Source: Halobacterium sp. DL1 (GTDB lineage Archaea; Halobacteriota; Halobacteria; Halobacteriales; Halobacteriaceae). Taken from it: a stretch of DNA of 64,000 nt. Both the position numbers and the translations under genes were made by a program. The notes under the pieces were generated by a model. The model worked only from the letters and a program-made list of their open reading frames with translations, searched no databases and had not been told where the DNA came from. The stretch lies in assembly GCA_000230955.3 (NCBI GenBank), contig CP007060.1:1054001-1118000 (forward strand), in the 5' to 3' direction. Every line of letters starts with the position of its first letter. The first letter of the stretch is position 1. Shown here in pieces: positions 35,680-38,706 of the stretch.

Positions 35680-36096
35680 TCAGGCGAGCGTGACGCCGAG
35701 GCTGTACGCCCACTCGCTGGTCGCGATGGCCGCGAATCCGACGGCGCCGCCCGCGAGCGCGACGTTCTTCAGGAACTGCGTCATCTCGTCCTGCTGCTGG
35801 TCCTCCGGGACCGCCCAGAAGTCGTGCATCAGCACGGCCGAGGCGAGCAGGAATCCCGCGACGGCAAGCGCACCGACGACTGGGAACGCGCCGAGGACGA
35901 CGGCGAACCCACCGAGTACGAGCACGGCACCGGACGCGAGCACGGAGAATTTCGGCGCCGGCAGTCCCTTGTGCTGGGCGTAGCCGGTCAGCTGGTCGAT
36001 TTGCATGAAGTGGTTCAATCCCATGAACGCGACGACGCCGCCGAACAGCACGCGCGCGACGAGCAGGCCGACGCCTTCGAGGCCGGTCGCGACCAT
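35680..36096 (-). CDS. DoxX-family membrane protein
   Basis: A 138-aa, four-helix protein: VGLLVARVLFGGVVAFMGLN at residues about 9-28, then helices near 52-72, 75-92 and 112-132. DoxX-family proteins act in quinone/thiol redox or in association with oxidoreductases; in Bacillus the DoxX-type CatD works with dioxygenase CatE in quinone resistance. Here it lies downstream of an esterase and two VOC dioxygenase genes. Its ATG overlaps the stop of a 23-codon leader ORF (TGATG). Confidence 0.85.
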   Translation of the reverse strand: MVATGLEGVGLLVARVLFGGVVAFMGLNHFMQIDQLTGYAQHKGLPAPKFSVLASGAVLVLGGFAVVLGAFPVVGALAVAGFLLASAVLMHDFWAVPEDQQQDEMTQFLKNVALAGGAVGFAAIATSEWAYSLGVTLA

Positions 36097-36167
36097 CAGG
36101 CGCTCACCCCTGTGGGCTGCGCTGGCTGACCGTTCGACTGTGCGCCGGATCGGACTGTGGTTTGCAT
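36096..36167 (-). CDS. Short leader ORF coupled to the DoxX gene
   Basis: A 23-codon frame, MQTTVRSGAQSNGQPAQPTG then VSA, whose TGA overlaps the DoxX ATG by one base. It contains Gln/Thr/Pro residues and no helix. The exact TGATG junction suggests translational coupling or a leader peptide. It could instead be untranslated leader; conservation in relatives would decide. Confidence 0.4.
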   Translation of the reverse strand: MQTTVRSGAQSNGQPAQPTGVSA

Positions 36168-36184
36168 AGTGGGTTTCACGACGT

Positions 36185-36210
36185 AAGGTAGTTCGGTAGG
36201 GAACCTACTT
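36185..36210. promoter_or_regulatory. Candidate operator upstream of the DoxX leader
   Basis: Imperfect inverted repeat: GTAGTTC and GAACCTAC flank GGTAGG, within AAGGTAGTTC ... GAACCTACTT. It lies 18-43 bp upstream of the leader ORF start, where the TATA/BRE should be and no clear TATA box is seen. A MarR/HxlR-type dimer could bind here; no regulator gene is adjacent. Confidence 0.4.
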
Positions 36211-36240
36211 GTACGCTTGGCGGCACCGCCGCCACCGGGT

Positions 36241-36252
36241 GACACGCGTGTC
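36241..36252. promoter_or_regulatory. Perfect 12-bp palindrome GACACGCGTGTC
   Basis: Located in the gap between the esterase stop and the DoxX promoter, followed by a C-run. It may be a protein-binding site for the DoxX promoter or part of a terminator for the upstream genes. Confidence 0.35.
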
Positions 36253-36290
36253 CCCCCCGCCCGTTGGGGCACATCCAGCCTGTCGAGGCG

Positions 36291-36968
36291 CTACGCGTCG
36301 TCCGCGAGGACCCGTTCGAGCAGCCCCCCAGCGACCGCGAACTCGTCGTCGGTGACGGCGTGGCCGACCCCCTCGTAGATGCGCTCGGTGACGTCGGCGT
36401 CGATGGCCCGGAACGCGGCAGCCGTCTCGCGAACGCGCTCGACCGGCACGTGCTCGTCGCTGTCGCCGCAGCCGAGGAAGACTGGCGTGCCGGCGAGGCT
36501 GCCGTCGTCGTCCGCTGAGGCGACCGACGAACCCAGCAGGCCCCCGCTCAGCGCGACGACCCCACCGTAGCGCCGCGGGTTCCGCACCGCGTACTCGCTG
36601 GCGAGGCAGGCGCCCTGCGAGAACCCGAACAGCACCACTCGCTCGGTCGGCACGCCCCACGTCGCGACGTCGTCGAACACCCTGTCAACTGCCGCGAGCG
36701 CCGACGAGACGTGGGGCTCGTTGCGCGACAGCGGGCCGAACGCGTCGTGGGGGAACCACCGACTACGCTCTGCCTCCGGCGCGACGAACGTCACGCCGTG
36801 GCGGTAGAGCGGCTCCGCGAGATTGACGATTCCCTGCGCCGTCGCGCCACGCCCGTGGAGAGCCACGACGACGGCCTCCGCGACCGATGCCGGCGCGCCC
36901 GCCGTGACGACCGGCTGGTCGGCATGGGGGTCCGGGGTTCCGCTTCGCTCGTCCGACTCCTCAGCCAC
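36291..36968 (-). CDS. Alpha/beta hydrolase (phospholipase/carboxylesterase, MhqD-like)
   Basis: A 225-aa serine hydrolase of the phospholipase/carboxylesterase family. The oxyanion region is VVALHGRGATAQGIVNLAEP near residue 34, nucleophile VLFGFSQGACLASEY near 118, aspartate in FLGCGDSDEHVP near 170 and histidine in VGHAVTDDE near 205. B. subtilis MhqD, of this family, belongs to the hydroquinone-resistance regulon. GTG start overlaps the dioxygenase stop by 8 nt, so the two are cotranslated. Confidence 0.88.
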   Translation of the reverse strand: MAEESDERSGTPDPHADQPVVTAGAPASVAEAVVVALHGRGATAQGIVNLAEPLYRHGVTFVAPEAERSRWFPHDAFGPLSRNEPHVSSALAAVDRVFDDVATWGVPTERVVLFGFSQGACLASEYAVRNPRRYGGVVALSGGLLGSSVASADDDGSLAGTPVFLGCGDSDEHVPVERVRETAAAFRAIDADVTERIYEGVGHAVTDDEFAVAGGLLERVLADDA

Positions 36969-37917
36969 TGGCGCCCTCCTCCGGCCGTTCGAGGGGCGGC
37001 AACTGGCTCTCGATCAGCTCGCGGTCCTCCGCGAACCGGTCGGGGAGCGCGAGTGACTCGCCCAGTTCGCTGACGTCCTCGTCGACAGTCAGTCCGGGCG
37101 ATTCGGTCGCGAGTTCGAAGAGGATGCCGCCGTCCTCCCGGACGTACAGGGAGTGGAAGAAGTAGCGGTCGCGGACGCGCGAGACGTCGTCCCCTCGCTC
37201 CCGGAAGAGGGCGTGCCACTCGTACAGTTCCTCGACGCTCGCGACGCGCACAGCGACGTGCTGGATGGAGCCCGTGCCCTCGCGGCCGAACCCCGCCGGT
37301 TCGTCGAGGACGTCCACCACGGTCGCGTGGTCGCCGCCCGCCTCGTAGCGGATGCGGGTCCCGCTGTCGGTCGCTTCCTCGCCGACGAGGTCGAACCCCA
37401 GCGTCTCCAGGAGCGCGCCTGTGGTGTACGGGTTCGTCGGGAGCGCGGTGACGCTGTGGACGCAGCGTATCGCGTACGCCGCCGGGACGTCGCTCTGGTG
37501 CCACGGTTCGACTGGGGCGTCACCCTCGACGAGTTCAACGTTCGTGCCGTCCGGGTCCTGGAAGCGGAGCAGTCGGTCTCCGAACCGCCGACTTGGTCCC
37601 TCGACGTCCACGCCGTTCGCTTCGAGGCGGTCCCGCCAGAACGACAGCGACCCCTCCGGGACGACGAACGCCACGGCGGCAATCTGGGGTTTGCCGACGC
37701 GGCCCGGCACCTCGTTCGGATACGGGAAGCAGGTCAGCACGGTCCCCGGGTCGGCTGTGCCGTTGCCGTAGAACAGGTGGTGGCGGAGCATGTCCTCCTG
37801 GTTGACCGTGCGCTTGACCAGGCGGAGGCCGAGCACGCCCACGTAGAAGTCGACGTTCCGCTGGGCCTGCTCGACGAGACCGGTGACGTGGTGGATGCCG
37901 GGCGTGTCGGTGAGCAT
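36961..37917 (-). CDS. Ring-cleaving dioxygenase, MhqA/MhqO-like (VOC superfamily)
   Basis: A 318-aa protein made of two glyoxalase/extradiol dioxygenase units. Metal ligands include His in GIHHVTGLVE near residue 9 and His in SIQHVAVRVASVEE near 217, with Glu in DGGILFELATES near 268. Relatives in the MhqA/MhqO family cleave hydroquinones. The ATG at 37917 begins with MLTDTPGIHHVTG, typical of the family. It lies 23 bp after the second VOC gene and overlaps the esterase. Confidence 0.88.
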   Translation of the reverse strand: MLTDTPGIHHVTGLVEQAQRNVDFYVGVLGLRLVKRTVNQEDMLRHHLFYGNGTADPGTVLTCFPYPNEVPGRVGKPQIAAVAFVVPEGSLSFWRDRLEANGVDVEGPSRRFGDRLLRFQDPDGTNVELVEGDAPVEPWHQSDVPAAYAIRCVHSVTALPTNPYTTGALLETLGFDLVGEEATDSGTRIRYEAGGDHATVVDVLDEPAGFGREGTGSIQHVAVRVASVEELYEWHALFRERGDDVSRVRDRYFFHSLYVREDGGILFELATESPGLTVDEDVSELGESLALPDRFAEDRELIESQLPPLERPEEGASG

Positions 37918-37940
37918 CGAGTCGGTGGAGGTCGGTGGCC

Positions 37941-38555
37941 TCAGTAGCCGACGCCGGTCGAGGCGTCCGGGAGGTCGTTCGGCTCGGCGTCGAGGCCGAG
38001 TTCCTCGAGCGCCGCCTTCATGTGCTCGTCCTCGGCGAAGTCGGAGCCGTCCTCCTCGCGGATGCGCTGGGCAGTCGCCAGCACTTCGCCCCGCCGGTCG
38101 TCGGGGATGTCGTACTTGTCTGCGGAGAGTTCGATGATGAGGCCGTTGTTGTCCTGGGTGTACAGCGAGAAGAAGATGCCCCGGTCGAAGACGTTGTAGC
38201 CGTGGCCGGCGTCGTCGAGGGCCGCCATGACGTCCTCGAAGTCCTCTGCCGCGATGGAGAAGGAGAGGTGGTGGACGCCGCCGACCTGGGTGCGGAGGCG
38301 CCCGCGGTTCGAGTCCCGGTCGTCGCTGACGAAGACGGTGAGGATGCGGCCGTCGCCGGTGTCGAAGAACAGGTGGGTCTGGGAGGGGTCGTCGAGGTTC
38401 GGCTGGCGGAGCACGAGGGGCATCCCCAGCAGGTCGCGGTAGAACGCGATGGTCTCCTCGGCGTTGCTCCCCCAGACGGTGATGTGGTCGGTGCCGGTCG
38501 TCCGGAACGGGCTGTCTGGCGGGTCTGCGCTGACGGAAATCGAGTCGTCTGCCAT
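37941..38555 (-). CDS. VOC-family (glyoxalase-fold) protein, probable dioxygenase
   Basis: A 204-aa protein. FRTTGTDHITVWGSNAEETI starts the domain (His near residue 24), followed by VHHLSFSIAAEDFEDVMAAL near 96 and GIFFSLYTQDNNGLIIELSA near 128, where the last Glu completes a 2-His-1-carboxylate metal site. The tail is acidic and helical. It is first of the three-gene set leading to the esterase. TATA-like GCTTATCC at about 38579-38587 gives a leaderless start. Confidence 0.85.
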   Translation of the reverse strand: MADDSISVSADPPDSPFRTTGTDHITVWGSNAEETIAFYRDLLGMPLVLRQPNLDDPSQTHLFFDTGDGRILTVFVSDDRDSNRGRLRTQVGGVHHLSFSIAAEDFEDVMAALDDAGHGYNVFDRGIFFSLYTQDNNGLIIELSADKYDIPDDRRGEVLATAQRIREEDGSDFAEDEHMKAALEELGLDAEPNDLPDASTGVGY

Positions 38556-38706
38556 ACGCGTCGGTACGCCACCCGCGCGGATAAGCGCTCGCGGATGGCG
38601 GCGTCACCCGGTGGCACGCGCGTAACCGCCCACGACGAGACCGCGTCTCGCGGTGGGCGAGGGTCCAAGCGCCACCGCTTTATCCGGGTGGGGCGTAGCC
38701 GGGGGC

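Follow-up and report, generated by a model that had tools for sequence, protein, structure and literature searches.

We analysed a 64-kb window of the Halobacterium sp. DL1 genome (the whole stretch of 64,000 nucleotides at positions 1,054,001 to 1,118,000 of contig CP007060.1), which encodes a small vicinal-oxygen-chelate (VOC) protein, a ring-cleaving dioxygenase (RCD), an esterase and a DoxX membrane protein. The results lean modestly towards the view that these genes belong to an electrophile response common to Halobacteria, in which two co-regulated units are switched by an HxlR/DUF24 regulator encoded in trans. Under this model, VOC, RCD and the esterase would form one transcription unit, and a leader open reading frame (ORF) and DoxX the other. 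The regulator (C1:1857009-1857371) would bind GTCACC-N-GGTGAC just upstream of the transcription factor B recognition element (BRE) and TATA box, would be switched by electrophile modification of its invariant N-terminal cysteine, and would control a second RCD-esterase pair together with the window units. VOC and RCD are predicted to open p-hydroquinone or catechol rings by means of His-His-Glu iron, whereupon the esterase, a serine hydrolase, would cleave the ring-opened product; DoxX may handle quinones or redox at the membrane. The inducer is probably a quinone or hydroquinone, and another electrophile could take this role.

The four genes share one direction on the minus strand, and both the coordinates and the Pfam families bear out the layout in the original prediction, which viewed the locus as a stand-alone quinone-detoxification system. 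VOC (37941..38555; 204 aa; Pfam Glyoxalase), a putative Fe(II) dioxygenase, heads the operon and is separated by 23 nt from RCD (36961..37917; 318 aa; Pfam Glyoxalase), which is of the MhqO/PcpA type. The esterase (36291..36968; 225 aa; GTG start) is an alpha/beta hydrolase (Abhydrolase_2, PF02230) and overlaps RCD by 8 nt; this overlap had been ascribed to the locus at large and holds for that junction but not for the others, which are gaps of 23 and 194 nt. Because 194 nt separate the esterase from DoxX (35680..36096; 138 aa; DoxX PF07681, E=5.3e-11), the latter probably has its own promoter. DoxX is the sole match at E<=1e-3 in its own genome.

Operator-like palindromes and a proposed regulator encoded in trans

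Intergenic regions next to divergent HxlR genes share the palindrome GTCACC-N-GGTGAC or a variant of it, and the variant GTCACCSGGTGGC (GTCACC[C/G]GGTGGC) occurs at three places in the DL1 genome, namely the VOC promoter, the DoxX promoter and the intergenic region between the HxlR gene and the second RCD. The first window copy, GTCACCCGGTGGC (38603..38615), has its first base 60 nt ahead of the ATG of VOC and lies 38-50 nt upstream of the start of a divergent DUF2797 gene, the upstream neighbour of VOC. It is accompanied by the TATA-like CGCTTATCC on the minus strand (38579..38587), 24-32 nt upstream of the ATG; judging by this sequence, the VOC transcript is likely leaderless. The spacing between palindrome and TATA recurs in the HxlR-linked promoters of loci L113 and L114. 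The second copy, GCCACCGGGTGAC on the plus strand (36231..36243), lies upstream of DoxX, 64 nt before the GTG start of the leader ORF, a distance close to the 60 nt seen at VOC, and the TATA-like TACAAGTAGG (36204..36213, minus strand) follows 25-34 nt upstream of that GTG. With the operator upstream of TATA, such promoters could be activated as well as repressed.

The leader ORF (36096..36179, minus strand) has 27 codons, and its TGA overlaps the DoxX ATG (TGATG). Across L111 and seven loci of the genus, its frame is kept at 24-27 codons and ends in EVSA or nearly so, and TACAAGTAGG is identical or almost identical in the seven same-genus DoxX loci. Conservation of the ORF end may simply reflect the ribosome-binding GGAGGTG that it contains.

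A matrix was trained on 13 promoters linked to HxlR genes in other genera and used with a site threshold of 9.6 bits, for which the background is 1.1% of 4104 control stretches. In a scan of the window, the sites at 38603 and 36231 are the top two 13-mers, each with 13.3 bits, the next scoring 9.7. Within the genus, all nine VOC loci carry the palindrome at −59 to −60, two loci without RCD-esterase included; at DoxX it exceeds the threshold in 5/7 loci, and degenerate copies are recognisable by eye in L017 and L021. The promoter counts that follow take operon-leading genes only, exclude the 13 training loci from the other-genera figures and distinguish A-type RCDs (at least 52% identical to the window RCD) from B-type RCDs (under 52%). 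Within the genus, a site above threshold precedes VOC in 9/9 cases (all nine at −55 to −66). Such a site precedes B-type RCDs in 6/7 cases within the genus and 11/20 in other genera (six at −55 to −66 in each set), and DoxX in 2/3 cases in other genera. No site above threshold was detected before LivH (0/8), LivM (0/8), GT1 (0/9) or GT2 (0/15). The figures are 4/11 for DUF2797 and 1/9 for the gene after it, and the divergent DUF2797 gene could be a further operator target.

The locus itself does not appear to encode its regulator: among the seven genes scanned there, no regulator was found, the MarR-type MhqR included, although no genome-wide MarR search was made, and a local MhqR-type regulator was rejected for this reason. 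The notion of a stand-alone system therefore does not hold, and the likely regulator is P0005, encoded at C1:1857009-1857371 divergently from the second RCD-esterase pair (L007; C1:1857535-1859087), whose RCD and esterase are 51% and 55% identical, respectively, to the window copies. P0005 is one of four HxlR-family matches in the genome, none of them within the window. It belongs to the DUF24/HxlR family (PF01638, 79 bits against 20.8), and its best PDB match is YodB (E=1.7e-14), followed by HxlR, HypR/YybR and QsrR. The N-terminal Cys of P0005 is aligned to a Cys in the HxlR and YybR chains, and Cys-x12-Trp is present in each of the 58 regulator homologues read, 37 of which carry a further Cys downstream, within a CxV(F/M/L) motif.

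Orthologues of P0005 were detected in 12 of 13 same-genus genomes (at least 85% identity) and in 276 of the 292 Halobacteria genomes, representing 77 genera, that make up our class sample (E<=1e-36); here and below, genomes and loci are related, so that the counts are not independent. Given this distribution of the regulator, the response, if real, would be general in Halobacteria. Among clusters of neighbouring ORFs, of which the HxlR and pirin clusters were used owing to GC-rich shadow ORFs, the biggest is an HxlR-type gene found in 16 loci. Its divergent partner is a B-type RCD in 12 of them (the second copy of DL1 included), VOC in L040 and DoxX in L111; in L154 and L023 it is not divergent, the L023 member being a different, more distant protein. 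We then considered 40 HxlR loci from 39 genera (two from the window's genus), drawn from the listed better-scoring matches and usually the first for each new genus, a sample that is neither random nor blind because DoxX neighbours had already been noticed for some loci when they were picked. In 28 of these 40 loci, the regulator gene has a divergent neighbour from the DoxX, RCD, esterase or VOC families (counted by the nearest such gene, DoxX 19, esterase 4, RCD 3, VOC 2). The operator site is present in 23/28 such loci versus 3/12 of the others (Fisher p=0.001), a difference that is weakened as support for the proposed regulon by the fact that several of the 40 loci share a genus with the matrix training loci.

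Enzyme families and competing functional readings

The RCD is related over its full length to MhqO and PcpA, the best PDB matches being B. subtilis MhqO (3oaj, E=1.3e-66) and then 1zsw and PcpA (4huz, E=1.5e-40). Residues H10, H220, E268, R251 and Y258 are invariant in 116/116 aligned sequences (all residue counts include the window protein, and length limits drop 1/116 RCDs, 3/100 esterases and 0/42 VOC proteins). R251 and Y258 align with an Arg and a Tyr of PcpA, a pair with a role in that enzyme. The metal ligands of 3OAJ are His-11, His-218 and Glu-266 (PMC12673573). With the His-His-Glu ligands in place, the earlier assignment of RCD as an MhqA/MhqO-like ring-cleaving dioxygenase is upheld at the level of sequence, and cleavage of a hydroquinone is the predicted reaction. 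The esterase is a PF02230 carboxylesterase (83.5 bits against a gathering score of 23), with a Ser-Asp-His triad (S117, D171, H203) that is invariant in 98/98 aligned sequences. Its closest PDB entry is 4h0c (E=1.7e-48), and acyl-protein thioesterases match as well. Its earlier label as MhqD-like was abandoned, given a score of 19.9 bits with the NCBIfam MhqD model (NF047577), for which the curated cut-off is 325.

In the VOC protein, H24, H96 and E142 are invariant in 43/43 aligned sequences. The protein aligns to residues 5-61 and 207-283 of MhqO, the second stretch being weak by itself, and as a profile it matches 1zsw, 9u42 and 3oaj. The best PDB folds for an AlphaFold model built from 12 sequences (predicted local distance difference test score, pLDDT, 77.8) are 9u42, a VOC-fold homogentisate 1,2-dioxygenase, and then MhqO (3oaj), with template-modelling (TM) scores of about 0.5; FosA, L-DOPA dioxygenase and glyoxalase follow lower down. 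Because homogentisate is a p-hydroquinone, VOC and RCD both point to hydroquinone-type ring cleavage, and the resemblance of VOC to a small hydroquinone-type dioxygenase, seen in both fold and profile matches, lends support to this part of the quinone hypothesis. With TM scores near 0.5, this role of VOC is a lead rather than a proof. CatE is larger than 204 aa, and it is doubtful that VOC is its equivalent.

The same families are compatible with other functions. One such reading, which we consider rather unlikely, is aldehyde detoxification, whereby VOC and RCD would be glyoxalase-like, the PF02230 hydrolase would cleave a thioester, and the HxlR protein would sense formaldehyde or methylglyoxal. 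The matches of the esterase to acyl-protein thioesterases and of VOC to FosA and glyoxalase folds fit this scheme; B. subtilis HxlR senses formaldehyde via its N-terminal Cys11 (PMC7835342), and glyoxalase activity has been reported in haloarchaea, in Haloferax volcanii with glutathione (GSH) or gamma-glutamylcysteine (PMC7278568). However, the best solved relatives of RCD are ring-cleaving enzymes with the Arg/Tyr pair of PcpA aligned to R251/Y258, and the top fold match of VOC is homogentisate 1,2-dioxygenase. Furthermore, formaldehyde sensing by the HxlR mechanism was rejected because P0005 reads Cys12-His13-Val14 and thus has no Lys two residues past the Cys, the partner used by HxlR for formaldehyde cross-linking (Cys11, Lys13; PMC7835342).

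An alternative that likewise appears improbable is a catabolic unit for imported aromatics, in which RCD would cleave a catechol or biaryl, a C-C hydrolase would follow, and an adjacent Liv-type ATP-binding cassette (ABC) transporter would feed the pathway. The genes livH, livM, livG and livF indeed come after DoxX in the same direction, and some genera have a pirin/quercetinase-like gene ahead of RCD. The lignin fragment DDVA induces Paenibacillus mhqPOD 400-1000-fold, and the alpha/beta hydrolase next to it has been proposed to be a C-C hydrolase (PMC12673573). The Liv genes, however, are not tied to the unit: in L017-L021, DoxX and LivH stand about 2.2 kb apart, and no operator precedes LivH or LivM. 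On these grounds, the transporter was rejected as a part of the unit. In addition, the presence of RCD in 233/292 class genomes suits a general stress function better, and DoxX together with a cysteine-type regulator would be unusual in catabolism.

Gene order in Halobacteria and beyond

Relatives of RCD were detected in 233 of the 292 genomes (63/77 genera; E<=1e-40), relatives of VOC in 224 (66/77 genera; E<=1e-20) and DoxX-like proteins, paralogues included, in 275 (69/77 genera; E<=1e-6). Within the genus, all seven loci fetched for a window-type RCD (76-88% identity) keep the order VOC-RCD-esterase, and six of the seven also have DoxX. In the closest same-genus relative (L016, genome G018), VOC-RCD-esterase is kept and DoxX is missing, with no DoxX match in that genome at E<=1e-6. 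The fetched loci contain 116 RCD matches, and the 101 RCDs from outside the genus include ones from VOC-fetched loci (L150). The esterase adjoins A-type RCDs in 8/8 cases within the genus and 54/60 elsewhere, and B-type RCDs in 2/7 and 28/41, respectively; gaps downstream of RCD are −1, −4 or −8 in 57/87. Thus, the RCD-esterase pair, usually translationally coupled, is the stable core across Halobacteria, whereas VOC and DoxX are mostly located elsewhere and have joined it repeatedly. The arrangement of the locus is not a matter of chance because it is kept in all seven genus loci and the esterase stands beside 54/60 A-type RCDs outside the genus. Scattering of the genes in relatives, which the original prediction had named as an argument against itself, is accordingly seen for VOC and DoxX, usually apart outside the genus, but not for RCD and the esterase, which stay paired.

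Among the 28 loci retrieved for VOC from other genera, the esterase lies directly downstream in eight and RCD is adjacent in one; the former figure suggests that one esterase family partners either VOC or RCD, and VOC was rejected as an inseparable partner of RCD, being mostly located elsewhere outside the genus. It is quite improbable that RCD-esterase is the sole functional unit and that VOC and DoxX are unrelated genes adjoining it in this genus: although VOC is found in 224/292 genomes yet within 400 bp of just 6/101 non-genus RCDs, and two same-genus genomes (G012, G013) hold it beside DUF2797 without RCD or esterase, the same-family esterase directly after VOC in 8/28 loci, the operator common to the VOC, DoxX and second RCD promoters, and the divergent orientation of HxlR to DoxX, esterase, RCD or VOC in 28/40 loci all argue otherwise.

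The linkage of dioxygenase and esterase recurs more widely, that of DoxX and dioxygenase less often. By title, 71 of 80 named RCD loci are bacterial, and an esterase match lies within 160 nt of RCD in 31 of these 71. In seven Bacillaceae loci (L237, L245, L246, L258, L266, L286, L289), 2-3 RCD copies are close together, and the flanks retrieved with them contain no window-type esterase match at E<=1e-4. In L185, L193, L194, L211 and L220, a more distant type of RCD (36-39% identical to that of the window) follows a DoxX gene that runs divergently to HxlR, an order reminiscent of catDE. RCD or VOC is preceded by a pirin/quercetinase-like gene in L056 (6150-6896, minus strand; the one locus for which the family was checked), L023, L046, L054, L077, L145 and L148.

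Several observations weigh against a common regulon controlled by P0005. Four other places in the DL1 genome outscore the window sites (18.0, 16.0, 15.6 and 15.6 versus 13.3 bits), and the loose form GTNACCNGGTNNC is little enriched genome-wide (28 matches versus 15 for the reversed control), so that the case for the operator rests on place and conservation. Outside the genus, a site above threshold precedes VOC in 9/32 cases (7 at −55 to −66) and leading A-type RCDs in 4/58; with A-type promoters elsewhere mostly free of the site, the window RCD-esterase pair appears to owe its operator control to VOC, the leading gene of its operon. The site at 38603 sits in an intergenic region (38556-38652) shared with the divergent DUF2797. 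With regard to the regulator, the phmmer alignment of P0005 with YodB starts downstream of the Cys; P0005 has a single Cys rather than the two of YodB, and a YodB-type intersubunit disulfide is therefore not available to it; and any of the three other HxlR-family proteins of the genome, one of which shares 36% identity with P0005, could bind instead. Outside the genus, VOC lies within 400 bp of 6/101 RCDs and DoxX of 4/101. Finally, the VOC model is of moderate quality.

As a genome-wide finder of further regulon members in DL1, the palindrome proved uninformative, the best other places lying mostly in ORFs and four of them outscoring the window sites. Of the ten best inspected, nine are inside ORFs of at least 70 aa (some perhaps spurious), and the tenth, located outside the window (L167, C1:1270289; 15.6 bits), precedes a 495-aa ORF by 14 nt and marks a possible further target.

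Relation to known quinone-response systems

If the proposed model is correct, this system would be an archaeal counterpart of the YodB/CatR/MhqR quinone response whose named regulator gene, 13-bp operator and few target genes could be tested in genetically tractable haloarchaea, and it would give a predicted hydroquinone-dioxygenase role to VOC, a conserved protein in 224/292 genomes. A more far-reaching formulation, which we put forward tentatively and believe somewhat less than we doubt, is that of a near-core HxlR/DUF24 regulon of Halobacteria with one invariant sensor Cys, in which three interchangeable enzymes, namely a so far undescribed small VOC hydroquinone dioxygenase, an MhqO/PcpA-type dioxygenase and a PF02230 hydrolase partnering either of them, would come together with DoxX under one palindromic operator, with a leaderless leader ORF conserved before DoxX; a quinone/electrophile-sensing regulon would thereby be defined in archaea for the first time. 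A literature search, mostly without subscription papers, found no description of the regulator-operator-enzyme set and, within the same scope, nothing direct on haloarchaeal HxlR, MhqO, DoxX or a VOC-type homogentisate dioxygenase.

MhqP and CatD belong to the DoxX family. The locus had been thought to combine two Bacillus regulons; MhqO-type enzymes do share an operator with a regulator of the YodB/CatR family, which comes close to that idea, but the gene set can be explained without a second regulon because mhqED consists of a dioxygenase and an esterase, and mhqOP or catDE of a dioxygenase and a DoxX protein. The term mhqNOD, used in the original prediction, does not denote an operon; in B. 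subtilis, MhqR controls mhqNOP and mhqED (PMC6798810). In the same organism, CatR (MarR/DUF24) and YodB repress catDE, and catD and catE both contribute to catechol resistance (PMC6212828).

The MhqR regulon of B. subtilis and S. aureus (mhqNOP, mhqED, mhqA; mhqRED) resembles the haloarchaeal locus in the MhqO-type dioxygenase beside an alpha/beta hydrolase and, through MhqP, in a DoxX partner. Unlike that regulon, the haloarchaeal locus has no MarR-type MhqR among the genes scanned, the proposed regulator being of the DUF24/HxlR family; its esterase fails the MhqD model, a small VOC protein is added, and the four-gene unit includes no azoreductase or nitroreductase. The palindrome GTCACC-N-GGTGAC also differs, in a comparison by eye, from the published 9-9 bp MhqR operator (PMC6798810). 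The Paenibacillus sp. B2 mhqPOD cluster likewise combines a dioxygenase with a hydrolase; it is strongly induced by an aromatic. Unlike the haloarchaeal unit, it has a MarR regulator and a major facilitator superfamily (MFS) transporter in the operon, and it has been described as catabolic, with an azoreductase as MhqP. PcpA, a 2,6-dichlorohydroquinone 1,2-dioxygenase that is part of pentachlorophenol catabolism, is related to RCD over its length, with the metal ligands and the Arg/Tyr pair aligned. The CatR/YodB-catDE system is similar in that a DUF24 regulator with an N-terminal Cys, as proposed here, controls a dioxygenase and CatD, a protein of the DoxX family. It differs in that the haloarchaeal dioxygenase is of the MhqO/PcpA type, an esterase and VOC are added, the putative regulator is encoded in trans, and the promoter is archaeal, with the palindrome upstream of BRE/TATA. 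Judged by family membership, the haloarchaeal set is thus a mixture of MhqO-type enzymes with a predicted regulator of the YodB/CatR type.

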